Position numbers and translations under genes: made by a program
Source of the DNA: a virus
Reading direction: 5' to 3' (one strand)
IMG/VR virus record: IMGVR_UViG_3300034061_002703
Coordinates: 1-24,511 of that record
DNA: 24,511 bases
Notes under the pieces: generated by a model
Told to the model about the DNA's origin: nothing
What the model saw: the letters and a program-made list of their open reading frames with translations, nothing else
The model's database searches: none
Part shown: positions 3,709 through 20,952 of the stretch, in pieces
How the letters are laid out: each line of letters opens with the position of its first letter
Position numbering within the stretch: position 1 is the first letter of the stretch

Positions 3709-3731
3709 CAAACTTGTGGTATCATGGATGC

Positions 3732-4415
3732 ATGGAAAAAACATACTTAGACGAAAACAAAAAGGTCTGGATCATAGAAGACTTTCTTACACAAGAAGAA
3801 TTAGATTGGTTTAAAACTAACACAGAAGATGTAAATGCTTGGTATCCAACCATGAGATCACCATACAGAAACATTCTTAATAAGTTTTTAAACATTGTAC
3901 CAAAGTATAATTCTGACGGAAACATAGAGTTTCCAAATGAAAACTCAGAGGTGTTAGAACTTTCAGTATTTTCAAAGCCTGGTGGAATATGGGATAGGCT
4001 TGAGTCTGTTCTTCCACCAGGATACAAAAGACACGCAACACTTCAAACATTTAAGTACATGACAGATGAAGAAATTATTAATAATGCAAACGAAGATCTA
4101 ATGAAAGAGTATGGCGTAGATAAAAATGAAATTGACTTTGCAATGTATTGGCATCAAGATCCAGGCGTAGAGCATAACATCTTAGCATCTTTTAGTCTTT
4201 ATTTAAACGATGATTTTGAGGGTGGGGAACTTGAGTTCATGCATCTTCCAATTAAAATTAAGCCAAAGGCTGGAATGCTTGCTGTAATTCCTGGTGGTAA
4301 TGAGTATACACACAGGGTAAATAAGGTTCTTGGGCCAAACTCAAGGCATACCCTTTATGGCAATTCTTTTGTAGACCTTGAGTCTGCGCCTGTAAGCACA
4401 GCGGATGACTGCTAA
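3732..4415 (+). CDS. 2OG/Fe(II) dioxygenase (prolyl-4-hydroxylase-like fold), copy A
   Basis: A 227-aa protein. The double-stranded beta-helix metal site is clear: His141-x-Asp143 (YWHQDPG), His194 (YTHRV) and the 2OG-binding Arg205 (SRHTLYG). SFSLYLNDDFEGGELEF and PKAGMLAVIPG are typical strand and turn sequences of this superfamily. It hydroxylates an unknown substrate with Fe(II), O2 and 2OG. The ATG at 3732 lies 6 nt after TATCAT (3720-3725), so it is probably leaderless; the frame is open back to 3714. It is a clear paralogue of the protein at 5697, sharing the start MEKTYLD and the end ST.DDC. The paired glutathione peroxidase-like genes lie between the two copies. Confidence 0.86.
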   Translation: MEKTYLDENKKVWIIEDFLTQEELDWFKTNTEDVNAWYPTMRSPYRNILNKFLNIVPKYNSDGNIEFPNENSEVLELSVFSKPGGIWDRLESVLPPGYKRHATLQTFKYMTDEEIINNANEDLMKEYGVDKNEIDFAMYWHQDPGVEHNILASFSLYLNDDFEGGELEFMHLPIKIKPKAGMLAVIPGGNEYTHRVNKVLGPNSRHTLYGNSFVDLESAPVSTADDC

Positions 4416-4447
4416 TCTTAAAATAAAAAAGGTGCTATAATAACAAT

Positions 4448-5236
4448 ATGAAATCTATTTACGACATCCAGTTGGACTCTGCCGAAGGCACTCCAAACTT
4501 TCTTGAACAATTTAAAGGCAAAGTAGTTTTGCTAATCAATACCACTGTAGGTTGTGGTAACGCTGGTCAAATGGAGTCCATCGAATGGATTCAGGAAGAT
4601 ATGGCAGGAGAAGATTTTACTGTTGTAGCAATTCCTACTAATGATTTCTGTGGTCCAAGCATAACAAAGGGTAAGTGGTCACAAGGTATTACATGTGGTC
4701 TGGACTCTAAGTTATACGGAGAAGATGTTTATGGTGTTACATTCCCATTCTCAGAAATGATCACATCTAATCCCGCAGATATTCCATTGGAAGCACCATG
4801 GCTTGGCAAGGGTCCAGGACTTAACGGAAACGGTCAGCCTTTTGGAGAAAGACATGAACTTTATTTAGAAATCTCTGAGCAGATTAAGGCATTACAGGAA
4901 GACAAAAGAGAAAAAGGATTAGTTGAAAAGACAGACTATGAATCAAGATACCTAAATGAGCATAACGGTGGTGTCATGATGAACGCAAACTTTGAGAAAT
5001 ATTTGATTGATAAGGATGGCTATGTAGTTAAGCACTATCCTGCTACAACATTGAACTGGGATGTAGAGCGTACATTAAAGGAAGATCTTGCAGCACAAGG
5101 AATTCATGCTTCTATGGGTCCTGACAGATCAGAGTACATCTTCAACGAAGAAAATGCTGTTATCCGTGATCACATCGAAAGACTTATGGCTGGCGAACGA
5201 TCACGCATTAATCCTAACCTTGTTCTATCTAACTAA
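4448..5236 (+). CDS. Glutathione peroxidase-like protein with altered active site, 262 aa
   Basis: A thioredoxin-fold protein of the glutathione peroxidase family. Cys36 in the NTTVGCGNAG segment occupies the peroxidatic position, and YGVTFPF (95-101) and NFEKYLIDKDG (181-191) align with the family. The other tetrad residues differ: the usual NQF is NDF (Asp66 for Gln) and the usual Trp-Asn is Ala180-Asn181. It also has an insertion around residues 102-175 and a long C-terminal extension, making it about 100 residues longer than a typical GPx. It may still reduce a peroxide, act on another thiol substrate, or serve as a scaffold. The ATG lies exactly 6 nt after TATAAT (4436-4441), predicting a leaderless mRNA. 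It pairs with the canonical copy that starts 18 nt downstream. Confidence 0.85.
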   Translation: MKSIYDIQLDSAEGTPNFLEQFKGKVVLLINTTVGCGNAGQMESIEWIQEDMAGEDFTVVAIPTNDFCGPSITKGKWSQGITCGLDSKLYGEDVYGVTFPFSEMITSNPADIPLEAPWLGKGPGLNGNGQPFGERHELYLEISEQIKALQEDKREKGLVEKTDYESRYLNEHNGGVMMNANFEKYLIDKDGYVVKHYPATTLNWDVERTLKEDLAAQGIHASMGPDRSEYIFNEENAVIRDHIERLMAGERSRINPNLVLSN

Positions 5237-5254
5237 CAGAAAGCAGAAACTCGC

Positions 5255-5689
5255 ATGAGTATATATGACTTGTCATTTATTGACAACAATGGTAATGAAA
5301 TAAAACTGGAAAGTTTTAAAGGAAAAAATGTTTTAATAGTAAATACAGCAAGTCAGTGTGGATACACAAAACAGTATGCTGATTTACAAAAAATTCAAAG
5401 TGACTCATTAGTTGTAATTGGATTTCCATGCAATCAGTTTGGAAATCAGGAGCCAGGAACAGATCAAGAAATTAAAAACTTCTGCACAAGCGTATATGGA
5501 ATAACATTTCCCATATCTCAAAAGGTAGAAGTAAACGGACCAAACGCTCATCCAATATATAAGTATTGCAAGGATGTTGCTACTCCAGGTAGAGAAATCG
5601 GTTGGAACTTTGAAAAATTCTTAATATCTGTTGATGGTTTGGTCACTCACTACCCCAACTCGTATCCAGTTTTAGAAATTAAGGTATAA
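5255..5689 (+). CDS. Canonical Cys-type glutathione peroxidase
   Basis: A 144-aa protein with the full GPx catalytic tetrad: Cys35 (NTASQCGYT), Gln61 (FPCNQFGNQEPG), Trp117 and Asn118 (GWNFEKF). YGITFPI and DGLVTHY also match the family. The second Cys at 77 (KNFCTS) is in the region where Cys-type, thioredoxin-dependent GPx enzymes keep the resolving cysteine. It reduces hydrogen peroxide or lipid peroxides in the cytoplasm, probably using thioredoxin or another host thiol. It is slightly shorter than the usual ~158 residues. No strong Shine-Dalgarno is visible before the ATG. Confidence 0.92.
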   Translation: MSIYDLSFIDNNGNEIKLESFKGKNVLIVNTASQCGYTKQYADLQKIQSDSLVVIGFPCNQFGNQEPGTDQEIKNFCTSVYGITFPISQKVEVNGPNAHPIYKYCKDVATPGREIGWNFEKFLISVDGLVTHYPNSYPVLEIKV

Positions 5690-5696
5690 TGATTTT

Positions 5697-6404
5697 ATGG
5701 AAAAAACATATTTAGATGGACAAGTTTGGTACATTGAGAACTTTTTAACTGATGAAGAACTATTAATTTTAAAGAAGTATTGGGATGCCCCTGGTGCCTG
5801 GTACTCCACTATGCGCTCACCATACAAGAACATTTTAAACAGATGGCCAATGCATGTGCCAGAGCACGAACCTGACGGAACACTTTCTATTCCCAATAAA
5901 GATAGCGTGATGGTACAGGAAGTTCTTGATCTTTTTTCTGGCAAAAATGGAATTTGGAAAAGATTAGAGTCTGTTCTTCCAGAAGGTTATGCTCCTAATA
6001 GTGGTATTCAAACATTTAAGTATTGCACAGATGAAGAAATAGAAAGAGACAGAGACGAAAGCATGTCTCTTGGTGATGATGAGATGAGAAGCATTTTGTC
6101 AAACCCAATTGAAAGCAAAGACATTGACTATGCAATGGACTGGCATTGGGAAGACACTGGAAAATATGGAAACAGAGTTGCATCACACTCTATTTATCTT
6201 AATGATGATTTTGAGGGTGGAGAGATAGAGTTTAGAAGTGGTCATGCTATCCATCCAAAGGCTGGTATGCTAATTAATATTCCAGTAGGAAAAGAGTTTG
6301 AGCATAGAGTTAAAAAAGTTCTTGGACCTAATAATAGACATACTTTGTACGGTCAGTGCTGGTCTACTGCAGAAGTTCCGCTTAGCACCAAAGATGACTG
6401 CTGA
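5697..6404 (+). CDS. 2OG/Fe(II) dioxygenase (prolyl-4-hydroxylase-like fold), copy B
   Basis: A 235-aa paralogue of the 3732 protein: shared MEKTYLD start, MRSPYKNILN, RLESVLP.GY, LNDDFEGGE.EF and the ST.DDC end. The metal site is His150-Trp-Glu152-Asp153, His203 and Arg214. The first pair therefore reads HxE, or HxxD with an extra residue, instead of the HQD of copy A, a difference that may affect metal binding. The ATG is 6 nt after TATAAT (5685-5690) and has no Shine-Dalgarno, so it is leaderless. With copy A it brackets the two peroxidase-like genes. Confidence 0.84.
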   Translation: MEKTYLDGQVWYIENFLTDEELLILKKYWDAPGAWYSTMRSPYKNILNRWPMHVPEHEPDGTLSIPNKDSVMVQEVLDLFSGKNGIWKRLESVLPEGYAPNSGIQTFKYCTDEEIERDRDESMSLGDDEMRSILSNPIESKDIDYAMDWHWEDTGKYGNRVASHSIYLNDDFEGGEIEFRSGHAIHPKAGMLINIPVGKEFEHRVKKVLGPNNRHTLYGQCWSTAEVPLSTKDDC

Positions 6405-8376: not shown

Positions 8377-8453
8377 AAGGGTGTGGTTAGCCTGTATGTG
8401 TCGGGAAACACTTATAGCCTATGTTGCAACACCACACCCTCCTAAAATTTTTT
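8377..8453 (+). ncRNA. Probable small structured RNA with terminator-like closing stem
   Basis: A TATAAT at 8365-8370 predicts +1 at 8377. The predicted RNA folds with a perfect 10-bp closing stem (8378-8387 with 8431-8440) and an internal hairpin (8391-8400 with 8407-8416, one T-T mismatch, loop CGGGAA). The closing stem is followed by a U-rich tail (8447-8453). It contains the self-complementary GTTGCAAC (8423-8430). No Shine-Dalgarno or ORF is visible. It could be a stand-alone phage sRNA, or simply an elaborate terminator for the tRNA operon and for the convergent gene at 8442-9182. The match of the predicted +1 to the base of the stem favours a defined RNA. Confidence 0.5.
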
Positions 8454-9182
8454 ATTCCAAAACAATAGGTCGTTTTGATATATTTCTTTGTCAAACAAAA
8501 AGTTATTATAGATCAAATCTATATCGTCTTTGCTAAGTTTATTAAGAAGAGCCTCTGATGAATTATTTTTATAGTGTTCTCTATCTGCTGATGAAAGTTC
8601 TATGTTTATATCTATGCCAAGATCATTTGATATCTTGCTGATCAGTGTAGAGTAGTCCATGGTCTTTAAGTCTTCGTGCCTTATCATTAAGTTAACCCTT
8701 TTTATTCTTTCATATACCAAATCTGAATCTATGGTATTTCCCTTGTTATGCTCCTTTATGGATTCCTGAATTATGTGGTTTTCTGTAGGGCTTAGTATAA
8801 AGTTTTGAGATTGAAAATTTTTTAAATAATCTAACTGAACTATTTTATTACGAACAGCATCTACTGGTATATCCAGTATTTTTGTTTTATCTCTTACGAT
8901 GTGATCTTTATTTTCATCCAGCATCTTTTCTTCGTCTGCAAACATGTGAGCAATAACACTCACAAAGAATCCTACTGGATCTCTAAACACAGAAACAACA
9001 TAGGTTTTGTCATCTATTTCTTTATGCCATCCACCATGCTTTAAAACATTTGGTGGCAACTTAACTACATCTATTCCATTTTCTTTTAATGTAGTTTCAA
9101 TTGGCTCAAGTATATACTTTGTAAAAAACCTTCCGCCTGTTTTTGGAATATGCAAAAAGTATATTTTATTATACTTTGACAT
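8442..9182 (-). CDS. Sulfotransferase-family-like protein, 246 aa
   Basis: The N-terminus YFLHIPKTGGRFF (about residues 8-20) is the 5'-phosphosulfate-binding loop signature of the Sulfotransfer_2 type, and VSVFRDPVGF (near residue 64) matches the 3'-phosphate-binding RDP motif. Such enzymes move sulfate from PAPS to a hydroxyl on a glycan, lipid or protein. The C-terminal half is helical and charged with no recognised motif. It is the third gene of an operon (9528 to 9313 to 9182), starting 2 nt after the stop of the 42-aa gene. A second family member is at 19944-20528. The family is a confident call; the donor and acceptor are unverified. Confidence 0.8.
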   Translation of the reverse strand: MSKYNKIYFLHIPKTGGRFFTKYILEPIETTLKENGIDVVKLPPNVLKHGGWHKEIDDKTYVVSVFRDPVGFFVSVIAHMFADEEKMLDENKDHIVRDKTKILDIPVDAVRNKIVQLDYLKNFQSQNFILSPTENHIIQESIKEHNKGNTIDSDLVYERIKRVNLMIRHEDLKTMDYSTLISKISNDLGIDINIELSSADREHYKNNSSEALLNKLSKDDIDLIYNNFLFDKEIYQNDLLFWNKKF

Positions 9183-11029: not shown

Positions 11030-11761
11030 TTATTTATTTGGGTCCTCTACATAGAGTTTTGTCTTTGTTATGTGAGTATGCTCCCAGTTTGGAGTAGAAC
11101 CATCATGAAGTTGACCACGCATGTAGTGCTTGCCAAAAACATCTTCTTTTTTTGTTTTTTTATCTTCTCTAAAATTTATAAATTTTGCAAGAGGTCCTTT
11201 TATTTCTGGATAATCCTCTATTCCAAAATGCTGCATGGAGAACTCTTCAATCATTGTTTTATTTACTGGAACAAAGAAAAATACTGGATCTCCTTTTTTA
11301 AAAGTAACTAATCTTCCAGGATCTGTAAACTTCCAGTTCATTGTTGGAGATGATGGGCTCCAGTCTGTTTCTATAATAGCGCTAAGTGGCTGTGCTCCAG
11401 GAATTACCAGATTTGGTGCAGGCATAATCCAAATACCCCATCCAGGTGGTGTTCTTGGTATAGCATTTATGTGAAATGTTAAAATACCATTTCCAGTACC
11501 GTTGTCAGCAAATATATGATTAGTTTCTGTATACCTACCACAAATAATTTTCATTCCTGATGCCTCTGCAGTTCCATCCCAAACTGCCTGAACATCATAT
11601 GGTGCCTTTACAGCCCAGCCATATTGTGATGCAAAAGTCATTGGCAAACATCTGTAGGCATATCCTTTAGCAGTATCATCCATCCATTGTCTATTTACGG
11701 GAGATTGAACTATGTCTAGTCTTTCTCCTTTTGGATTTATATGATACCAATTTATATACAT
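11030..11761 (-). CDS. DUF6065-like protein, 243 aa
   Basis: The sequence resembles DUF6065: SPVNRQWMDDTAKGYAYRC, LPMTFASQYGWAV, VQAVWDGTAE, then FADNGTGNGILTF, a Pro/Gly-rich PRTPPGWGIWIMPAPN, an ETDW strand and FKKGDPVFFFVPV. Members of this family appear beside natural-product and post-translational tailoring genes, but their reaction is not established. The order of strands suggests a beta-rich fold. The gene follows the two LLM genes by 2 nt and ends their operon. Conserved acidic, His and Trp residues would be the first candidates for a catalytic site. Confidence 0.78.
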   Translation of the reverse strand: MYINWYHINPKGERLDIVQSPVNRQWMDDTAKGYAYRCLPMTFASQYGWAVKAPYDVQAVWDGTAEASGMKIICGRYTETNHIFADNGTGNGILTFHINAIPRTPPGWGIWIMPAPNLVIPGAQPLSAIIETDWSPSSPTMNWKFTDPGRLVTFKKGDPVFFFVPVNKTMIEEFSMQHFGIEDYPEIKGPLAKFINFREDKKTKKEDVFGKHYMRGQLHDGSTPNWEHTHITKTKLYVEDPNK

Positions 11762-11763
11762 GT

Positions 11764-12618
11764 TTATTTATACCTTGACTCTACATATTTTTTAATAAAA
11801 GATACTATTATTTTTGATTCTGATCTTGGTACAGCATTTATTAAAAGGTGATTAATATTATCTTTTTCAAGCATCTGAATAAATTCATGAAAAGTTTCGT
11901 GGGTAAAGTATTCTACGTCTTCTACAACCTTTGAGACATCTCCTTTTTTCCATACTGGCTTCATAGCATGCTGTGCTAAGGATTGAAGTTCTTCTTCTGT
12001 CTCTCTAATAACTGGTGTCATTGCCAGCATTATTTCAGTTTCTCCCCTATCAAACTCAATCTTTAAAGAAGGATCTTTTAGCCAGTCTGACCAAAATCCA
12101 CGCTTGTAGATGCTGTATGGAAGAATAATCTTGTTCTTATATTTTTTTACTGCATCAAACACGTAGTTATTAGTTGTTGAAATGTAGACATCTAACTGCT
12201 CTTTTGGATCTTTATTTTTTGATATCTCGTCTAAACTTTCAATAAATTTAATTGTGTAGTTTGATCTTTCGACTGAAGATGATAGGTCATTTACATCACC
12301 AACAATTCCCCCTACATTACTTTCGTGGTCTTTTATATAACCTGCAATTATATTTATCTGAAGTCTATCTTTTTGAATTTCATCTATAGATTGGTTTATT
12401 GCATAAAGATATTGTGGAGATATTGTATAAGGTCGTATTGCAATAAGGTATTTAATCTTTTCATTTAATTTAATATCTTTAGCAACCCTAACAAACATAT
12501 CTCCCTGTGTTGCATCATAGGTAAACATTACTCCATCGAAGTGGTGACTATCTAATGTAGATGTATCTTCAAGTGTATCATTTTCATTAAACGTTCCACC
12601 AAAATAATAAAACTTCAT
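11764..12618 (-). CDS. Luciferase-like monooxygenase (LLM) family protein, copy 2
   Basis: A 284-aa TIM-barrel protein of the flavin-dependent LLM type. IKYLIAIRPYTISPQYLYA (about residues 53-72) followed by DRLQINIIAGYIKDHE (about 84-99) reproduces the SsuD-like pattern ALRPG..SP..AA and GRL.LN.VTG...E, which forms the flavin phosphate pocket in alkanesulfonate monooxygenases. Typical LLM proteins are 330-380 residues, so this one is compact. It uses FMNH2 and O2 if active; no flavin reductase is visible in the window. Copy 1 ends in a TAATG overlap with this start. The two copies are similar over their whole length. Confidence 0.8.
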   Translation of the reverse strand: MKFYYFGGTFNENDTLEDTSTLDSHHFDGVMFTYDATQGDMFVRVAKDIKLNEKIKYLIAIRPYTISPQYLYAINQSIDEIQKDRLQINIIAGYIKDHESNVGGIVGDVNDLSSSVERSNYTIKFIESLDEISKNKDPKEQLDVYISTTNNYVFDAVKKYKNKIILPYSIYKRGFWSDWLKDPSLKIEFDRGETEIMLAMTPVIRETEEELQSLAQHAMKPVWKKGDVSKVVEDVEYFTHETFHEFIQMLEKDNINHLLINAVPRSESKIIVSFIKKYVESRYK

Positions 12619-13472
12619 TATTTGTTTATCTCCGCATACTCTTTTGATTGCACATAATCTCTAATAAATGGAATTATCACATCATTTTCTGCTTGAGGAA
12701 CAGCGTTAATTAGAAGATAGTTTATGTTGTCATTCTTTAATTCTTTGATAAATTCATGAAAACTTTTGTGAGTAAAGTATCCAACATCATTAACTACTTT
12801 AGGGATTTCTCCTTCTTGCCAAACAGGTCTTAATGCATAATTTTTTAAGGCCTCAAGTTCTTTCTCGGTTTCTCTAATAATTGGTGTCATTGCCAACATT
12901 ATCTCTTTGCTTTTAACATCTAAAGTTTTACTATATTTTTTAAACCAAAGATTATTTTTATACAGACTATATGGAAGTATTATTTTGTTGTTATATTTAT
13001 TAACCGTATCAAGAACTCTTGGATTAGTAGTTGTTACAAAAAAATCTAAAGGTGATTTTAAATCTTTTTCTGACTGCATATCGTTTAATGAATCAAGAAA
13101 CTCAGTCATATATTTTCTTTTAGCAACCTTGTCTGACTGGTCGTTTACGTTTCCAACGATTCCATTAAAACTGTTTTCGTGGTCCTTTGTGTATCCTGTA
13201 ATAAAATTTATTTGAATTCTATTCTTATCTATCTTATTTAAAGAATCATTGATCATATACAAGTACTGTGGAGATATTGTATATGGTCTTATAGCAATCA
13301 AATACTTAATGCTCTTAGTTGTTTTTATATCAAGTGCTGCTTTTACAAATATATCTCCTTGAGGAATGTCATGTGTAAACATTACACCAGAGAAATGATG
13401 TTGCTCTAAATTTGAAGGAGACTTAACTGATCCTTCTTCACCAATAACTCCACCAAAATAATAAAAATTCAT
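12618..13472 (-). CDS. Luciferase-like monooxygenase (LLM) family protein, copy 1
   Basis: A 284-aa paralogue of the next gene, both starting M(N/K)FYYFGG. Flavin-domain signatures are IKYLIAIRPYTISPQYLYM (55-73) and NRIQINFITGYTKDHE (84-99); NKIILPYSLYK and EIMLAMTPIIRETE are shared with copy 2. The conservation of both copies suggests a heteromeric enzyme, as in bacterial luciferase LuxA/LuxB, or two substrates. Its start overlaps the stop of a 37-aa zinc-knuckle gene (ATGA), and its stop overlaps the start of copy 2. Together with DUF6065 it makes a three-gene tailoring cassette. Confidence 0.8.
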   Translation of the reverse strand: MNFYYFGGVIGEEGSVKSPSNLEQHHFSGVMFTHDIPQGDIFVKAALDIKTTKSIKYLIAIRPYTISPQYLYMINDSLNKIDKNRIQINFITGYTKDHENSFNGIVGNVNDQSDKVAKRKYMTEFLDSLNDMQSEKDLKSPLDFFVTTTNPRVLDTVNKYNNKIILPYSLYKNNLWFKKYSKTLDVKSKEIMLAMTPIIRETEKELEALKNYALRPVWQEGEIPKVVNDVGYFTHKSFHEFIKELKNDNINYLLINAVPQAENDVIIPFIRDYVQSKEYAEINK

Positions 13473-13614: not shown

Positions 13615-14040
13615 CTACTCTATTCTATCATAGTCTTCTGGTAGTAGTTTCTTTAGTTCTTTGTATGCCCCTGAAATTTTCTTCATTGAGTGGTAGTGCG
13701 GATAGGCTGACCCTACTTCTCCATACTCATCAAAATATGCAATCTCTGGCTCAATATCAATAATAAATTTATTTAAACCTTCTTGAACATCATCTATATA
13801 TTGGTATGCCCAATCACGAGAATCTGAAACAAATTTTAAAAATGCATCCGACTCTGTTTCTTTCTTAAGTAAATTTCTTGCAGATGCTTCAAAAAGTTTT
13901 TCAGCCAGAACTGTTTTATCTATGTGTGATTGAATTAGTTCTTTAGACATTGATACAGTTTTAATTTTAAATCTAACATTGTTTATAATTAAAGCAAAAA
14001 ATAAAAATATAAAAAATACAAATGAAATTAACTCTATCAT
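13615..14040 (-). CDS. Membrane-anchored hypothetical protein, 141 aa
   Basis: Residues 3-22 form an N-terminal transmembrane helix (ELISFVFFIFLFFALIIN), followed by a Lys-rich linker and a helical cytoplasmic or periplasmic domain of about 110 residues (LAEKLFEASARNLL, then WAYQYIDDVQEGLNKF). The last 25 residues (HSMKKISGAYKELKKLLPEDYDRIE) resemble tails seen in actinophage proteins. It is coupled to the upstream gene by an ATGA overlap. Confidence 0.62.
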   Translation of the reverse strand: MIELISFVFFIFLFFALIINNVRFKIKTVSMSKELIQSHIDKTVLAEKLFEASARNLLKKETESDAFLKFVSDSRDWAYQYIDDVQEGLNKFIIDIEPEIAYFDEYGEVGSAYPHYHSMKKISGAYKELKKLLPEDYDRIE

Positions 14041-14274: not shown

Positions 14275-14559
14275 TTATTGATCCACCGTTAACCTTTGCC
14301 ATGTATTTGCCCAGTCTGACTTAGACTTATGCTTAGAAAACTCTTTAGAAAGTTGGCCACCTTCAAGGTAAACTCCTCCCCAAACTCCCCACTCTTTTTG
14401 TGAAACTCCAACAGCAAAGCACATTTTTGATACTGGACACATAGAGCATAGTTTATCTATTGCTGGCCTTAACAGTTCATCATCTTCATACTTTTCAAAG
14501 AATAAATTTGTGTCGTAGTCTAAACATAAAGCATCGTCTTTCCATTCATGTTTAGGCAT
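14275..14559 (-). CDS. WhiB-family iron-sulfur regulator
   Basis: A 94-aa WhiB-like protein. Four Cys ligands for a [4Fe-4S] cluster are present (Cys12, Cys38, Cys41, Cys47, with C-x2-C-x5-C), then the G[VI]WGG turn (GVWGG, 58-62) and a basic C-terminal region expected to touch DNA. WhiB proteins are restricted to actinobacteria and their phages; they bind the primary sigma factor and sense redox or NO. A phage copy could redirect host transcription or block host WhiB proteins. It is the strongest host marker in the window. It sits in a run of minus-strand genes with 1-nt spacings. Confidence 0.93.
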   Translation of the reverse strand: MPKHEWKDDALCLDYDTNLFFEKYEDDELLRPAIDKLCSMCPVSKMCFAVGVSQKEWGVWGGVYLEGGQLSKEFSKHKSKSDWANTWQRLTVDQ

Positions 14560-16110: not shown

Positions 16111-16518
16111 TTACTTACCCGACTTTGCTCTTGCCTTCTTCAAAGCGTCAAAATCTTTGACCTTTGTCTCTCCCATATATCCCCAAGCGTAGCCATCATT
16201 AATCATCATATCATTAAGGGATACAGTATCCCCATTAATATATACCCAGCCCAAAATGCGACCATACTTCTCAGATGAATCCATCTTCTCAGTCTTGATT
16301 ACAACAGACTTAGCATCTTTTAGAGCCTTCTTTAGGTACTCTTTAGACTCAAGGCCAAGCGCTTTCTCTTTAAGATCTTTTGTGCGAGACTCAGGGGTAT
16401 CAATACCAGCCAGTCTTACACGAGATGAGAACAGGATATCAAACCCTAAATCAATTAGAACGTCAATGGTATCTCCATCTACTACGTTCTCTACTTTTCT
16501 TACATAATACTGATACAT
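16111..16518 (-). CDS. Thermonuclease (staphylococcal nuclease family)
   Basis: A 135-aa SNase-fold protein with VVDGDTIDVLIDLG, the catalytic Arg in SSRVRLAGIDTPE, the Glu of TPES, and the second Arg in KYGRILGWVYINGD, ending with LNDMMINDGYAWGYMG. It would cut single-stranded DNA or RNA with calcium. No signal peptide is present, so it acts inside the cell unless released by lysis. The Met at 16518 is chosen because AAGGGGG sits 6 nt upstream; the frame is open to 16539. It is downstream of the membrane-protein gene by 11 nt. Confidence 0.9.
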   Translation of the reverse strand: MYQYYVRKVENVVDGDTIDVLIDLGFDILFSSRVRLAGIDTPESRTKDLKEKALGLESKEYLKKALKDAKSVVIKTEKMDSSEKYGRILGWVYINGDTVSLNDMMINDGYAWGYMGETKVKDFDALKKARAKSGK

Positions 16519-16529
16519 AATAAGCCCCC

Positions 16530-16814
16530 TTAGACCCAATGTTTAATTATAGCACTTACAGCAAGAGTTGACCACAAAATATTAAACCAAATAATTGTAG
16601 GCAAAGTCTTTACTGTTGATGACCAAATCAATGCAAGGCTTGACACCAATGCAAAAATGTATAGCCACCACCATTGCTTGCCGAATAGTAAGCCTGGAAA
16701 TATGATAGATATTTTTGTCATAAAAGCAAAGAACTCAACAGTGTTTGGTCTATCCCAATACTTCTTGTGTTTCATTGTCTTTAGAGCATTAATCCACTCT
16801 GTTCTAAATTTCAT
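16530..16814 (-). CDS. Membrane protein, 94 aa
   Basis: About three hydrophobic segments: ISIIFPGLLFG, the Trp-rich WWWLYIFALVSSLALIW (51-65), and TIIWFNILWSTLAVSAI (70-88). The first 30 residues are basic and polar (MKFRTEWINALKTMKHKKYW). It starts in an ATGA overlap with the halogenase stop and so is coupled to it. It may anchor or export a product, or be an unrelated phage membrane protein; no family is recognised. Confidence 0.6.
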   Translation of the reverse strand: MKFRTEWINALKTMKHKKYWDRPNTVEFFAFMTKISIIFPGLLFGKQWWWLYIFALVSSLALIWSSTVKTLPTIIWFNILWSTLAVSAIIKHWV

Positions 16815-18334
16815 TTTAATCCCTCCAAAAATTGTCTATGGTCTACGCACTCTGATACCTTATATTCTCTGTACTTGCTATAGTACTCATAAGAATCAAC
16901 TGCTTTCTTATATTCGTCAGACAGTTCTATATATTGATTTGCAAGATCTTTGTTAATCTTATCCTGTGCTGATCCAACTAAGAACCAACTCTTAGAACTC
17001 CAGTGATTACCATTGTCTGCTTTCCCTGGCATTCTTTTTTTCCAAACATTTAACTTGTTCTTTAAAGTTTCTGGTGCATTTTCATATGAAAACTTTTCCC
17101 AAAATGGTGTGTCTTTTCTTAAAGACATGTAGTGAAAATATATAAAGTTAAGAATGTCATCATTCATATTTACAATAATTTTATTAAACTCTGCTCTTAT
17201 CTCAGGGCAATTATTAATTAAAAAGTCTGGGCTTGCAAATATCTCAGTTAGTTCAACCATACTTACCCATAAAGAGGTTGCCTCAAGTGGCTCTACAAAG
17301 TTTGCTGCCAAGCCAACTGCTATACAGTTGTTTTGCCATGGCTCTTCAAATGCTCCTGGACTAAAACTAAACCCACCCTTGTCTTTTCTTGGGTAGGTTG
17401 GAACAAAGCCCAAAAAATCCTCAACTTCTTTTATTGCTTCGCCTTCTGATATCAAAGATGAGTCATAAACATATCCGCAACCAAATCTATTTTGTAGAGG
17501 AATCTTCCAGACCCATCCGTACTTCATAGCAATTGCTTCTGTATATGGTGGAATCTTGTCTGTCATGTCAAGGAAGAATGGTACTGCAGAGTCTGTCGGC
17601 AAAAAATCTTTATAACTCTTCCACTTTGAGTTAAACGTTTTTCCAATTATTAACCTATGAAATCCACTGCAGTCAAATACAAAGTCGCAAACAATGTTAG
17701 ATCCACTATCTAAGTCTAAACTTGTAACATTATTATTTTGATCTAAGTGAACATTGGTTATGGTGTTTTCAAATACTTCAATGCCTCTTTCAAGCCCTAT
17801 CTCTTTAAATCTGGCTGCAAGTTTTGTAGCATTAAAATGAAAAGATATATGCCCAATCTTCTTATAGTCTAAAAGAGTTTTTCCTTCTTTATTTTTTTCA
17901 AGAACGAAAGGAACTTTATTATTTTCTGATACCGTTTCTGTAAAGTCAATATCTTTTACACTATTGTTTAGCATAATGCTTGAAAGCATCATTGGGCTTG
18001 CAGATAAAAACTTAGATGATAGAGCCTCTGTTCCAAGGGCACTATCTGTAAATGAAAATCCATGATAATAAAAGTCATCCTGGTTATTCCAGTTAGTAAA
18101 CTTTATACCATTTTTTACAGTAGCGTCACAATTTTTTACTAAGTCTTCAAAAGTTATATCTAAGGTTTCTAAAAATGCAGGTAAGTATGGTGTGGAGCCT
18201 TCTCCTGCACCTAAGATACCAATATCTTTTGACTCTACTACAATAACATTTAGTTTTGGATACTTCTTTTTTGCGGTCAACGCCGTAAGCCATCCAGCGC
18301 TTCCTCCACCAACAACAACTATATTCTTTGTCAT
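16811..18334 (-). CDS. Flavin-dependent tryptophan-halogenase-like enzyme
   Basis: A 507-aa protein with the FAD-binding GGGSAGW (9-15), LGAGEGSTPYLP (41-52), the segment VKNGIKFTNW (73-82) where the family's catalytic lysine lies, DFVFDCSGFHR (217-227), the diagnostic WxWxIP motif WVWKIP (274-279), and IAVGLAANFVEPLEATSLW near residue 350. These match PrnA/RebH-type halogenases, which make HOCl from FADH2, O2 and chloride and halogenate tryptophan or an indole. A flavin reductase would have to come from the host. Many phage homologues exist, and some family members lack halogenation activity. It is encoded in a coupled operon with hydroxylase, sulfotransferase and kinase genes. Confidence 0.92.
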   Translation of the reverse strand: MTKNIVVVGGGSAGWLTALTAKKKYPKLNVIVVESKDIGILGAGEGSTPYLPAFLETLDITFEDLVKNCDATVKNGIKFTNWNNQDDFYYHGFSFTDSALGTEALSSKFLSASPMMLSSIMLNNSVKDIDFTETVSENNKVPFVLEKNKEGKTLLDYKKIGHISFHFNATKLAARFKEIGLERGIEVFENTITNVHLDQNNNVTSLDLDSGSNIVCDFVFDCSGFHRLIIGKTFNSKWKSYKDFLPTDSAVPFFLDMTDKIPPYTEAIAMKYGWVWKIPLQNRFGCGYVYDSSLISEGEAIKEVEDFLGFVPTYPRKDKGGFSFSPGAFEEPWQNNCIAVGLAANFVEPLEATSLWVSMVELTEIFASPDFLINNCPEIRAEFNKIIVNMNDDILNFIYFHYMSLRKDTPFWEKFSYENAPETLKNKLNVWKKRMPGKADNGNHWSSKSWFLVGSAQDKINKDLANQYIELSDEYKKAVDSYEYYSKYREYKVSECVDHRQFLEGLK

Positions 18335-18537
18335 TACTTTCTACCCCATTTTATGCAGTTCCATCCACGCTCATGAACGTAGTAAATAAATATTTTAACT
18401 ACTGTTTCCCAAAACGCAATTGCGCTTGATAGTGTAGCATTTCTTGTAAAAATATAAACGATAACGAATGAGGAAAGCGTTCCCCATATGCGATAACTTA
18501 ATGCCTTAGCAAAGGATCTAGCCTTTGTTACTGTCAT
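18334..18537 (-). CDS. DUF2061 family membrane protein
   Basis: A 67-aa protein. The start at 18537 (MTVTKARSFAKALSYRIWG) matches the usual DUF2061 start; the frame is open to 18585 but that part belongs to another gene. Two transmembrane helices are predicted (SSFVIVYIFTRNAT and AIAFWETVVKIFIYYVHERGW), ending with the typical YYxHERxW and a basic tail. Function of the family is unknown. It overlaps the 35-aa gene upstream by 20 nt, and its stop overlaps the halogenase start (TAATG). A more diverged relative may be the 86-aa protein at 21064-21324. Confidence 0.8.
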   Translation of the reverse strand: MTVTKARSFAKALSYRIWGTLSSFVIVYIFTRNATLSSAIAFWETVVKIFIYYVHERGWNCIKWGRK

Positions 18538-18625
18538 CAGATCCACCCCACTTTTTGTCAACAAAGTGAACAGCAATAGCAGCAACTATAAGTGAAACAA
18601 CAACTGCAATAGCATTCTCTAACAT
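18518..18625 (-). CDS. Single-pass membrane mini-protein, 35 aa
   Basis: MLENAIAVVVSLIVAAIAVHF is one transmembrane helix followed by a polar tail (VDKKWGGSDDSNKG). It starts directly after the stop of the kinase gene (adjacent TAG and ATG) and overlaps the DUF2061 start. A real gene in a coupled operon is likely; it could pair with the DUF2061 protein in the membrane. Confidence 0.55.
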   Translation of the reverse strand: MLENAIAVVVSLIVAAIAVHFVDKKWGGSDDSNKG

Positions 18626-19387
18626 CTATATACCCATTTCCTTACGCTTTTGTGTAGCAGAAATAGCATGAATATCTGCACCTAAATCTACCTGCTCAAT
18701 CTTATACCCTACATCACGACCATAGACAATGTTGGTAATGTTAGGTAGTCTTAATACTAATGCTTCGTCCATAAATTCATCTTTGGCAATATATTCTTTA
18801 ACCTGATCAAACTTAAGTGGATCCTTTTCGCTTGTGTTGTAGGTATTACGGACTCCAAGAAGCACTTGGTCAGTTCTCTTACCAGCCTCTTTGTAAAGGG
18901 CGTGGTGGCCTTCGTGCCAAGGCTGATACCTACCCAGCATAAGAGTTGTAGGTGCAGACCAGTCATGAAGACTAAACTTGTCAATGATATGAGATGCCTT
19001 TGCTTCTGCATCTAAGTTGTGACTAATAAATGATACATCAAACTCTGTTGGTCTTTCAAACATTTTGTTTGTGTCTTCAAATCGACCCTCTGCAATTGTG
19101 TCCATGAATACTAAGATATCTGGCTTGCCAAATGCTACACGAGTTAGATCTGTTGGACATACAAAGTCAACAATTACTGGAGCAACACCCTGCTTAGAAA
19201 TAAGTCTTGCCATCTCCCCCATGCGTCTTGCCTGCTCAAGTCTATCTTCTGGAGCAAAACCCAAGTCTGAGTTTACTGTTGCTCTAACCTCATCTGCATT
19301 AAGATGAATAGCATTAATTCTTTCCTTTAATGCCTTTGCTAATTCTGTTTTGCCAGATCCTGGCAGACCTATAATCTGAATAATCAT
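18626..19387 (-). CDS. APS-kinase-like P-loop domain fused to HxGH nucleotidyltransferase
   Basis: A 253-aa two-domain protein. Residues 1-140 are a P-loop kinase of the CysC type: Walker A GLPGSGKT (7-14), NADEVRA (30-36), APEDRLEQARRMG and the VIVDFVCPTDLTR segment (71-83). Residues 146-253 are a nucleotidyltransferase with GRYQPWHEGHHAL (152-164; HxGH at 158-161) and ISATQKRKEMG (242-252), the ISxTxxR-type closing motif. Such fusions are known in phages but their substrate is unsettled; NadR-like or glycerol-phosphate/pantetheine-type chemistry is as possible as sulfate activation. Because the operon starts with a sulfotransferase-like gene, a role in PAPS supply is tempting, but only inferred. 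It begins in an ATGA overlap. Confidence 0.85.
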   Translation of the reverse strand: MIIQIIGLPGSGKTELAKALKERINAIHLNADEVRATVNSDLGFAPEDRLEQARRMGEMARLISKQGVAPVIVDFVCPTDLTRVAFGKPDILVFMDTIAEGRFEDTNKMFERPTEFDVSFISHNLDAEAKASHIIDKFSLHDWSAPTTLMLGRYQPWHEGHHALYKEAGKRTDQVLLGVRNTYNTSEKDPLKFDQVKEYIAKDEFMDEALVLRLPNITNIVYGRDVGYKIEQVDLGADIHAISATQKRKEMGI

Positions 19388-19947
19388 TTTTTACCTATTT
19401 CTGTCTTTGGCATAATGTCAATTAACAAATGCACCCTGTCTATTTTACTGCCATTATTTACAAAATGAGTTTTTGAGTTGTTTATTTCCCAACATTCACC
19501 AGTCTGCATCTTAACCTTTTCAGTATCTACCCCAAAAAATACATCGTCAGAAGTAACTACTGGTATGTGATTTCTTCTTGAAAGAATTAGGTAGTCTCCT
19601 GAGTCGTGATGTGGCGCTATGTCTTGCCCTGCCTTCAACTTAATCAAGAGCACCATACCCCTGACACCGTTGTGTATTCTTTCAAGGTCTGAAATTATTG
19701 GCTCTAAAAGTTCAAGCAAAACTTTATCGTTAGAGGTTTTTTGAGTAGAAAAATTTTCTCCCTCTTTCCATCTAAGGTCTGCCGTATAGACAAAGTATGA
19801 GGTTGTATCCTTGTGTACATAATGATTATCTTGTCTTGAGGTATTAATAAACCACTCTTCAGAAAAACCATCTATGTGTTTTCTGATTGGCTCCACATCA
19901 TATTTGCTATGCTGTTTAAAATTAAAATCTTCTAAAGTCTTTTTCAT
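19384..19947 (-). CDS. Aspartyl/asparaginyl beta-hydroxylase-like protein
   Basis: A 187-aa cupin-type 2OG enzyme of the Asp/Asn hydroxylase group: LLIKLKAGQDIAPHHDSG (iron His in APHHD), NHIPVVTSDDVFFG, GECWEINNSKTHFVNNG (second iron His), and DRVHLLIDIMP with the 2OG-binding Arg-x-His. It would hydroxylate an Asp or Asn side chain of a protein or peptide. The gene is joined on both sides by ATGA overlaps, to the sulfotransferase-like gene before it and the kinase after it; GGAGACAAA precedes the ATG. Confidence 0.87.
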   Translation of the reverse strand: MKKTLEDFNFKQHSKYDVEPIRKHIDGFSEEWFINTSRQDNHYVHKDTTSYFVYTADLRWKEGENFSTQKTSNDKVLLELLEPIISDLERIHNGVRGMVLLIKLKAGQDIAPHHDSGDYLILSRRNHIPVVTSDDVFFGVDTEKVKMQTGECWEINNSKTHFVNNGSKIDRVHLLIDIMPKTEIGKK

Positions 19948-20528
19948 TTTGTCTCCAAGGTTTTATTAAAATCTGTAGAATAGGAAAAATTTATAAAGTC
20001 AGAACTATAAAGGTCCTTGGTCATATCTATTGCCTCTTCTGTGTAGTCTTTCATATATGATTCTACCACATAGTTTCCTAAATTATAAAACCCAAGGTTC
20101 CAGCCAAGGTCATTCTCCAACTCTTTTAAGTTTTCAAACCTATACAGTCTATCAACCTGCAGTCTGCCATTATCAATAATATAAAATGATTGTGGAAGAT
20201 GAAGCAGTGGGCTTATTGGAGATATATTGTTTTGCTTAATATTGTCTAAATATTTTACAAAAGATATATCTGTTTTGTTAACCTTATTAAATTGCTTATA
20301 GCAACTATAAGTCCTTGTGTATGGATTTCTTACAACAGAAAAAGAAAAAACACTCTCATCAATTTTGTTTGCTTCCTTTAGATAGGAATAAGGGTCATGG
20401 TGTCTTGGCCATGCCCTATTCCAGTTATCTAAATTATTATCGTTCAGAACCTTAGAGATGGACGAGCCAGCAGTCTTTGGGATGTGAACAAATAAAACGT
20501 GAGAATATTGCTTTTCTTTTATAAGCAT
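19944..20528 (-). CDS. Sulfotransferase-family-like protein, 194 aa
   Basis: LFVHIPKTAGSSISK (12-26) is the PAPS 5'-phosphosulfate loop and FSVVRNPYTRTYS (about 63-75) the RNP 3'-phosphate motif of Sulfotransfer_2-type enzymes; the length of 194 is short for the family, suggesting a minimal core. It begins the coupled operon running to the membrane protein at 16530. The ATG follows a hairpin directly (20529-20547), with no separate Shine-Dalgarno. It is only distantly similar to the other sulfotransferase-like protein at 8442-9182. Confidence 0.82.
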   Translation of the reverse strand: MLIKEKQYSHVLFVHIPKTAGSSISKVLNDNNLDNWNRAWPRHHDPYSYLKEANKIDESVFSFSVVRNPYTRTYSCYKQFNKVNKTDISFVKYLDNIKQNNISPISPLLHLPQSFYIIDNGRLQVDRLYRFENLKELENDLGWNLGFYNLGNYVVESYMKDYTEEAIDMTKDLYSSDFINFSYSTDFNKTLETK

Positions 20529-20547
20529 ACTAGTTTAACTAACTAGT
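20529..20547 (-). promoter_or_regulatory. Hairpin touching the sulfotransferase start codon
   Basis: ACTAGTT (20529-20535) and AACTAGT (20541-20547) form a 7-bp hairpin with a 5-nt loop. It contains the stop codon of the upstream gene and ends immediately before the ATG at 20528. A translational control element is possible; the plus strand carries a following TTTT but no gene. Confidence 0.4.
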
Positions 20548-20753
20548 TTTTGTCGCTCATCAAGTACCGTCAAAGCAAAGGAAATCATTTTCTTGTACCC
20601 ATCTTTGTTGTTCATGATGTTGTTGTAATGGTGACCACAAAACAGCAGGTCTCCGCTAATACCAGAGACCTTTACCAAAGCCTCAGCGTTGCACCTATCG
20701 CATCGATCTGCTGGAGATAGTTGCCACTCTTGCTTTACTTCATCCTTAACCAT
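20535..20753 (-). CDS. DUF7455-like zinc-binding protein, 72 aa
   Basis: CDRCNAEALVKV...GDLLFCGHHYNN: a Cys-x-x-Cys pair and a Cys-Gly-His-His motif, the hallmark of the small DUF7455 proteins common in actinobacteria and their phages. The zinc site is probably structural. The start at 20753 (MVKDEVKQ) is favoured because TATAAT (20766-20761) lies 7 nt upstream, as for the HNH gene; longer starts at 20762 and 20801 would run through it. Confidence 0.76.
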   Translation of the reverse strand: MVKDEVKQEWQLSPADRCDRCNAEALVKVSGISGDLLFCGHHYNNIMNNKDGYKKMISFALTVLDERQKLVS

Positions 20754-20766
20754 TGTAAACATTATA

Positions 20767-20952
20767 CTACCGCTTTCTGTTATCAGTGGAATAAAATCCA
20801 CTACCGTTGAATACTGCTCCTATATTAGAGTATACACGAACCAGAGGCAGATTGCAAGTTTCGCAATTGTACCCTGGATCGTCTTCTTTAATTGATCTTT
20901 CTTTTGTATACCTTTGACCGCAAGGCATACAATCGTATTCGTATAATGCCAT
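20767..20952 (-). CDS. FmdB-type zinc-ribbon protein
   Basis: A 61-aa protein starting MALYEYDCMPCGQRYTKERSI, with CxxC at 8-11 and a second Cys pair CETCNLPL (30-33), ending FNGSGFYSTDNRKR. This is the standard layout of the FmdB family, small zinc ribbons named as putative regulators. It follows the 35-aa gene by a few bases and precedes the DUF7455-like gene. Confidence 0.86.
   Translation of the reverse strand: MALYEYDCMPCGQRYTKERSIKEDDPGYNCETCNLPLVRVYSNIGAVFNGSGFYSTDNRKR

Follow-up and report, generated by a model that had tools for sequence, protein, structure and literature searches.

Halogenases encoded by viruses are already known. VirX1 of cyanophage Syn10 (PDB 6QGM) is a phage-encoded flavin-dependent halogenase (FDH) of family PF04820 without the free-tryptophan motif, and tryptophan halogenases are widespread in phages, with 20 of 153 cyanophages reported to carry them (PMC10452541). 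No established infection role of phage tryptophan halogenases was found in the literature. We analyzed a halogenase-like gene (HAL) located in a viral source record of 24,511 bases, referred to along its whole length as the window. VirX1 is about 26% identical to HAL and shares with it the glycine-rich motif, the catalytic Lys and Glu and the WxWxIP motif; it differs in keeping FxxPxxSxG, where HAL has FxxPxxAxS, and in having no adjacent gene for the small Trp-rich membrane protein (TrpMP) encoded next to HAL. RebH, PrnA, SttH and other tryptophan halogenases share their fold family with HAL (phmmer E 4e-62 to 1e-53 over its residues 4-438), but HAL lacks the Trp4 motif, lies outside a biosynthetic cluster and has a membrane protein as its close partner. 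The best-scoring match among phage records is the halogenase of the Pelagibacter phage HTVC008M (40% identity over 82% of the query), which carries the same FxEPLEATS motif as HAL, whereas its gene adjoins 2OG oxygenase and terminase genes and is not accompanied by TrpMP. TrpMP as membrane partner of a halogenase appears not to have been reported before; a literature search that left subscription papers largely uncovered returned no paper linking a halogenase, a phage and a small membrane protein.

Gene layout and composition of the cargo slot

HAL is included in a set of seven intact, open ORFs that run on the minus strand from position 20528 to 16530. The first one, SULF (19944..20528), encodes a sulfotransferase-like protein (PF03567, 1.1e-6; phrog_3347, 3.3e-13) whose translation contains the motifs HIPKTAGSS and RNPxxRxxS. 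It is followed by ASPH (19384..19947), an Asp/Asn beta-hydroxylase-like 2OG oxygenase (PF05118, 1.9e-13), and by KINNT (18626..19387), in which an APS-kinase-like domain (APS_kinase, 1.7e-14, residues 2-83) is joined to a small HxGH nucleotidyltransferase domain (phrog_10255, 7e-63; CTP_transf_like, sub-threshold). A 35-aa membrane ORF of no assigned family (18518..18625), which goes with KINNT and DUF2061, and a DUF2061 small membrane protein (18334..18537; PF09834, 2.6e-16) precede HAL (16811..18334; 507 aa; Trp_halogenase PF04820, 3.6e-104) and its core partner TrpMP (16530..16814; 94 aa). From SULF to TrpMP the junctions measure -4, -4, 0, -20, -1 and -4 nt. The seven genes are therefore packed without gaps and mostly overlapping, as had been described from the sequence alone, and the enzyme assignments made from it are upheld. 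HAL and TrpMP show dN/dS values of about 0.02-0.4, which correspond to purifying selection; together with the existence of orthologues, this shows that both are real genes.

Spacing is tight in 6/6 gene pairs inside the cluster and in 14/25 outside it. Close spacing is usual in this minus-strand transcription unit and extends from the CHAP endolysin gene (21980) to about position 13615. It does not single out the seven genes, and genes lying close together in a phage cargo region are a poor indication of a shared pathway.

We compared 96 related slots, all of them bounded by the same two backbone genes, which in the window are a zinc-finger-like gene at the upstream border (20535..20801, minus strand) and an SNase-like gene at the downstream border (16111..16518, minus strand). 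Gene order was also compared in the surroundings of 80 close HAL relatives. Across the 96 slots the genes form three separate units, SULF-ASPH, KINNT-small ORF-DUF2061 and HAL-TrpMP, and slots were observed that contain all units, KINNT-DUF2061 only, SULF-ASPH only, HAL-TrpMP only, or none. SULF and ASPH are co-present or co-absent in most of these slots, and small ORFs of 31-91 aa occupy the position of the 35-aa ORF in relatives. The units lie apart from one another in L044, L055 and L075, and occupy different places in L044 and L055. A set of 18 phage genomes of 80-120 kb includes 15 with KINNT, 8 with a sulfotransferase and 9 with HAL; on a DnaE backbone tree, neither KINNT nor HAL is associated with the sulfotransferase.

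The sequence-only reading had taken the tight coupling of the seven genes as a sign of a single peptide or natural-product tailoring route. The overlaps between the genes and the recurrence of the full set, in the same order, in many relatives are in line with this proposal. However, each unit has its own history of gain and loss, as observed in the 80 HAL relatives, the 96 slots, the 18 genomes and the DnaE tree, and the units can lie apart; the sulfotransferase, hydroxylase and kinase genes are scattered in related phages and independently gained, an outcome that the proposal itself had named as contrary to it. Besides, packing is no tighter than in unrelated neighbor genes, and no carrier, synthetase, precursor or scaffold gene was recognized among the window proteins scanned. 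With independent units and no scaffold gene recognized, peptide or natural-product tailoring gained no positive support, and we consider a single pathway very improbable. The SULF-ASPH and KINNT-DUF2061 units would rather work separately.

With respect to the origin of the window, a WhiB-like gene was identified from its translation at positions 14275-14559. As whiB is an actinophage marker (PMC6802176), this gene indicates an actinophage, and freshwater actinobacteria are probably the host of the source virus. No near relatives of this phage family were found among the phage records searched.

Motifs of the halogenase-like protein

HAL aligns with the solved chains of RebH, SttH and VirX1 over residues 4-438. 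The FAD-binding GxGxxG motif is present as GGGSAGW and is invariant from the window to VirX1, as are W274, W276, K74 and E351. The latter two align to the catalytic Lys (K79 of PrnA/RebH) and the Glu of EPLE in RebH and SttH. WxWxIP is present as WVWKIP, and HAL also contains FX[DE]PX[EFL], the second of the published motifs. The tunnel motif differs: in place of FxxPxxSxG, which every active FDH is reported to have (PMC8407142), HAL has FVEPLEATS, with Ser changed to Ala and Gly to Ser. The second outcome that the sequence-only reading had named as contrary to it, a halogenase lacking FAD or substrate-pocket residues, was not observed: the FAD site and the catalytic Lys and Glu are in place, while the tunnel motif differs. 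As FxxPxxSxG is not found, we assign HAL to the PF04820 variant A sequence family by membership and make no claim of halogenating activity, which from these motifs appears plausible, not assured.

The altered form FxxPxxAxS is fixed in 168/169 close relatives and is common to HTVC008M, S-H38 and P-SSM2. Such a departure from the motif of the active enzymes may suggest that the clade of the window has lost halogenation and consists of flavin monooxygenases or oxidases with altered tunnel chemistry. Taking into account that K74, E351 and WxWxIP are retained and that FX[DE]PX[EFL] is present, we regard this loss as clearly unlikely. In a second clade that is also paired with TrpMP, the SxG residues are kept and the Ile of WxWxIP is lost.

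HAL was also compared with published tryptophan substrate motifs (PMC8269204). Neither form of the Trp4 motif was found in it, and the Trp1 and Trp2 forms are also absent. As the published Trp4 motifs are missing, free tryptophan is an unlikely substrate. The substrate side of HAL is strongly variable. No cellular relative with more than 34% identity to HAL was found, and a recent host origin is accordingly not supported. A scan with the halogenase sequence of DSL-LC01 returned no relatives.

Association of HAL with a Trp-rich membrane protein

TrpMP adjoins HAL in all 80 close relatives, a 4-nt overlap being the commonest arrangement, and is found in hundreds of phage contigs. HAL and TrpMP are both present in the same nine of the 18 genomes of 80-120 kb, and neither occurs in the remaining nine; 12 of the 18 had been reached via KINNT or ASPH and were not chosen via HAL. 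On the DnaE tree the presence of HAL changes about five times, and TrpMP follows every time. The two genes are concordant in 4/4 independent pairs on supported branches, a number of pairs too small for p<0.05. A second halogenase clade, near VirX1 and about 30% identical to the HAL of the window, is also paired with TrpMP. In G007 and G024 the order is reversed, with TrpMP before the halogenase, which argues against hitch-hiking of TrpMP at the 3′ end. HAL and TrpMP thus share their gains, losses and retention, whichever comes first and with halogenases as little as about 30% identical, and the link between them survives, stronger than the sequence-only reading had recognized.

The pairing is frequent and repeated, but not universal, as TrpMP is missing next to the halogenases of cyanophages, pelagiphages and some actinophages; the halogenases without it include those of cyanophages, HTVC008M, DSL-LC01, G026, L089 and L135. 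Conversely, four of the 80 best TrpMP loci have no adjacent HAL: L243, where the contig end cuts off the locus; L221, which has a HAL fragment elsewhere on the contig; and L258 and L259, short contigs of 9 and 14 kb with TrpMP and without HAL.

Window and L224 TrpMP proteins are 84% identical and the corresponding halogenases 31%, with synonymous sites saturated. On this comparison, TrpMP is the constrained part of the pair, evolving far more slowly, and the halogenase is the diversified one. As synonymous sites are saturated, recent transfer was rejected as the source of the high TrpMP identity in distant pairs; local transfer was accepted for L003, L028 and L058, where TrpMP dS is below HAL dS.

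Nine of the 94 residues of TrpMP are Trp, and four of these Trp are invariant; the other invariant residues include N24, E27, K34, K69, T70 and N78. It is predicted to form an N-terminal helix followed by three membrane helices (AF2 model of medium confidence, pLDDT 71). Comparison with PHROG and NCBIfam gave no match and that with Pfam none of significance, and a fold search likewise returned nothing significant; SemiSWEET, considered as a fold, was discarded since its E values of 3-5 are noise. A pattern scan of a kind that would miss distant forms found no TrpMP in cellular genomes.

With nine Trp residues, four of them invariant, and a halogenase always adjacent, TrpMP might itself be the substrate, HAL halogenating the Trp residues of its small partner. 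Nevertheless, many of the invariant residues are non-aromatic, the Trp residues would sit inside membrane helices, and TrpMP is almost constant, in contrast to the highly variable substrate side of HAL. We consider TrpMP as substrate quite improbable; its pattern of conservation would instead fit a partner with a fixed job.

Modification of the virion has to be weighed as well. HAL would then halogenate aromatic residues of tail-fiber or collagen-like virion proteins and be one of several particle-decorating phage enzymes, such as 2OG hydroxylases and glycosyltransferases. This is the strongest rival, because halogenases without TrpMP sit among collagen-like or tail genes (L382, PF01391 3.6e-24; DSL-LC01) and because L223, with its halogenase behind tail genes, has TrpMP too. 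The HTVC008M halogenase likewise lies among virion genes, and PF11397 GlcNAc transferases adjoin HAL at L059 8758-9954, L135 9731-10639 and L089 10177-10917. On the other hand, in the window and in most TrpMP-paired relatives HAL is located among endolysin, SNase and WhiB genes, away from virion genes, and a virion substrate needs no dedicated membrane protein. We judge virion modification to be rather unlikely.

From the observed anatomy and co-inheritance of the two genes, we infer a location, a substrate and a chemistry for HAL as follows. HAL would use FADH2, O2 and halide supplied by the host, and a hypohalous species would travel through its tunnel to the Lys/Glu site. The enzyme would act at the inner membrane with the three-helix TrpMP as dedicated partner, whose most likely function is to recruit HAL to an aromatic substrate in the membrane or envelope, or to present that substrate; the substrate would differ between phages. 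Our best explanation couples three parts: halogenation, or a related flavin chemistry, that is linked to the membrane and served by TrpMP as its dedicated partner; a slot holding three independently gained units, and not one pathway; and the interpretation of the seven-gene region as the accessory cargo slot of a family of actinophages whose genomes measure about 115 kb. The three together have about an even chance of being right. A more specific version, which we put forward tentatively as possible rather than probable, is a two-gene system in which the near-constant three-helix protein docks a substrate-diversified flavin halogenase, or altered-tunnel flavoenzyme, to the host membrane, where a target in the host envelope, or one resembling a quinone, would be modified in the course of infection. 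Modification of the host surface, suggested already by the sequence-only reading, or of the membrane is still a possible role. A conserved membrane partner provides a handle on where phage halogenases act and what they touch, and the HAL-TrpMP pairing makes their role testable.

The kinase-nucleotidyltransferase and other enzymes of the region

The kinase half of KINNT adopts an APS-kinase fold in the predicted structure (pLDDT 89.5), the top Foldseek matches of which are APS kinases (E 1e-8), and the APS-site residues D32, R35, F44, R49 and R55 are invariant in 30 diverse phage KINNTs. The C-terminal part, of about 105 aa, is a small, NMNAT-like HxGH nucleotidyltransferase with the conserved motifs GRYQPxHxGH, YGRxVGY and ISATxxR and with weak matches to NMNAT/cytidylyltransferase models; no sulfurylase model matched KINNT. 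The protein thus resembles PAPS synthetase (APS kinase plus ATP sulfurylase) in its fusion of an APS-kinase-like domain with a nucleotidyltransferase of the HxGH type, but differs from it in that the latter domain is small and NMNAT-like and the gene is unlinked to sulfotransferases.

KINNT is common in many kinds of phages, with at least 600 pattern matches. Nearby genes of distant KINNTs encode 2OG oxygenases, glycosyltransferases, redoxins and DUF2061, the latter also following some of them; sulfotransferases are absent among the 25 commonest families. As neither co-occurrence on the backbone tree nor a place among these commonest neighbors was found, KINNT as PAPS supplier of the sulfotransferase was rejected as a general rule. 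Searches for defense systems gave only marginal matches for KINNT. In the nod region of a Mesorhizobium huakuii plasmid (L265 4017-8257), DUF2061 lies between a sulfotransferase gene and cysD-cysN, a hint that DUF2061 may be connected with sulfate activation or sulfation; the order sulfotransferase-DUF2061-cysD-cysN is missing from three other DUF2061 loci. A second sulfotransferase-like gene, with a weak phrog_3347 match, is located at 8442-9182 in the window.

Two tandem 284-aa paralogues, weakly similar to FMNH2-dependent luciferase-type monooxygenases, are encoded at 11764-13472. In relatives, the cargo slot can also receive a further luciferase-like paralogue, which sometimes precedes HAL-TrpMP. 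On the plus strand, at 3714-6404, two 2OG-Fe(II) oxygenase genes alternate with two glutathione-peroxidase-like genes, and a 94-aa protein encoded at 1847-2131 is weakly similar to half of the nicotinamide riboside transporter PnuC.

DUF6065 or DUF6065-like proteins are recurrent neighbors of phage halogenases (window 11030-11761; L224 1748-2476 and 4286-5742; L380 5891-6604), and L224 encodes three of them. G007, in which the TrpMP-HAL pair at 82-84 kb is intact, also contains a second and shorter halogenase frame at 111672-112811 (402 aa, with its middle part unmatched). In L382, L223 and L181 (DSL-LC01), phage halogenases adjoin collagen-like or tail-fiber genes together with a DUF6445/2OG-oxygenase-like protein or a glycosyltransferase, gene groups that are possibly virion protein modification cassettes.
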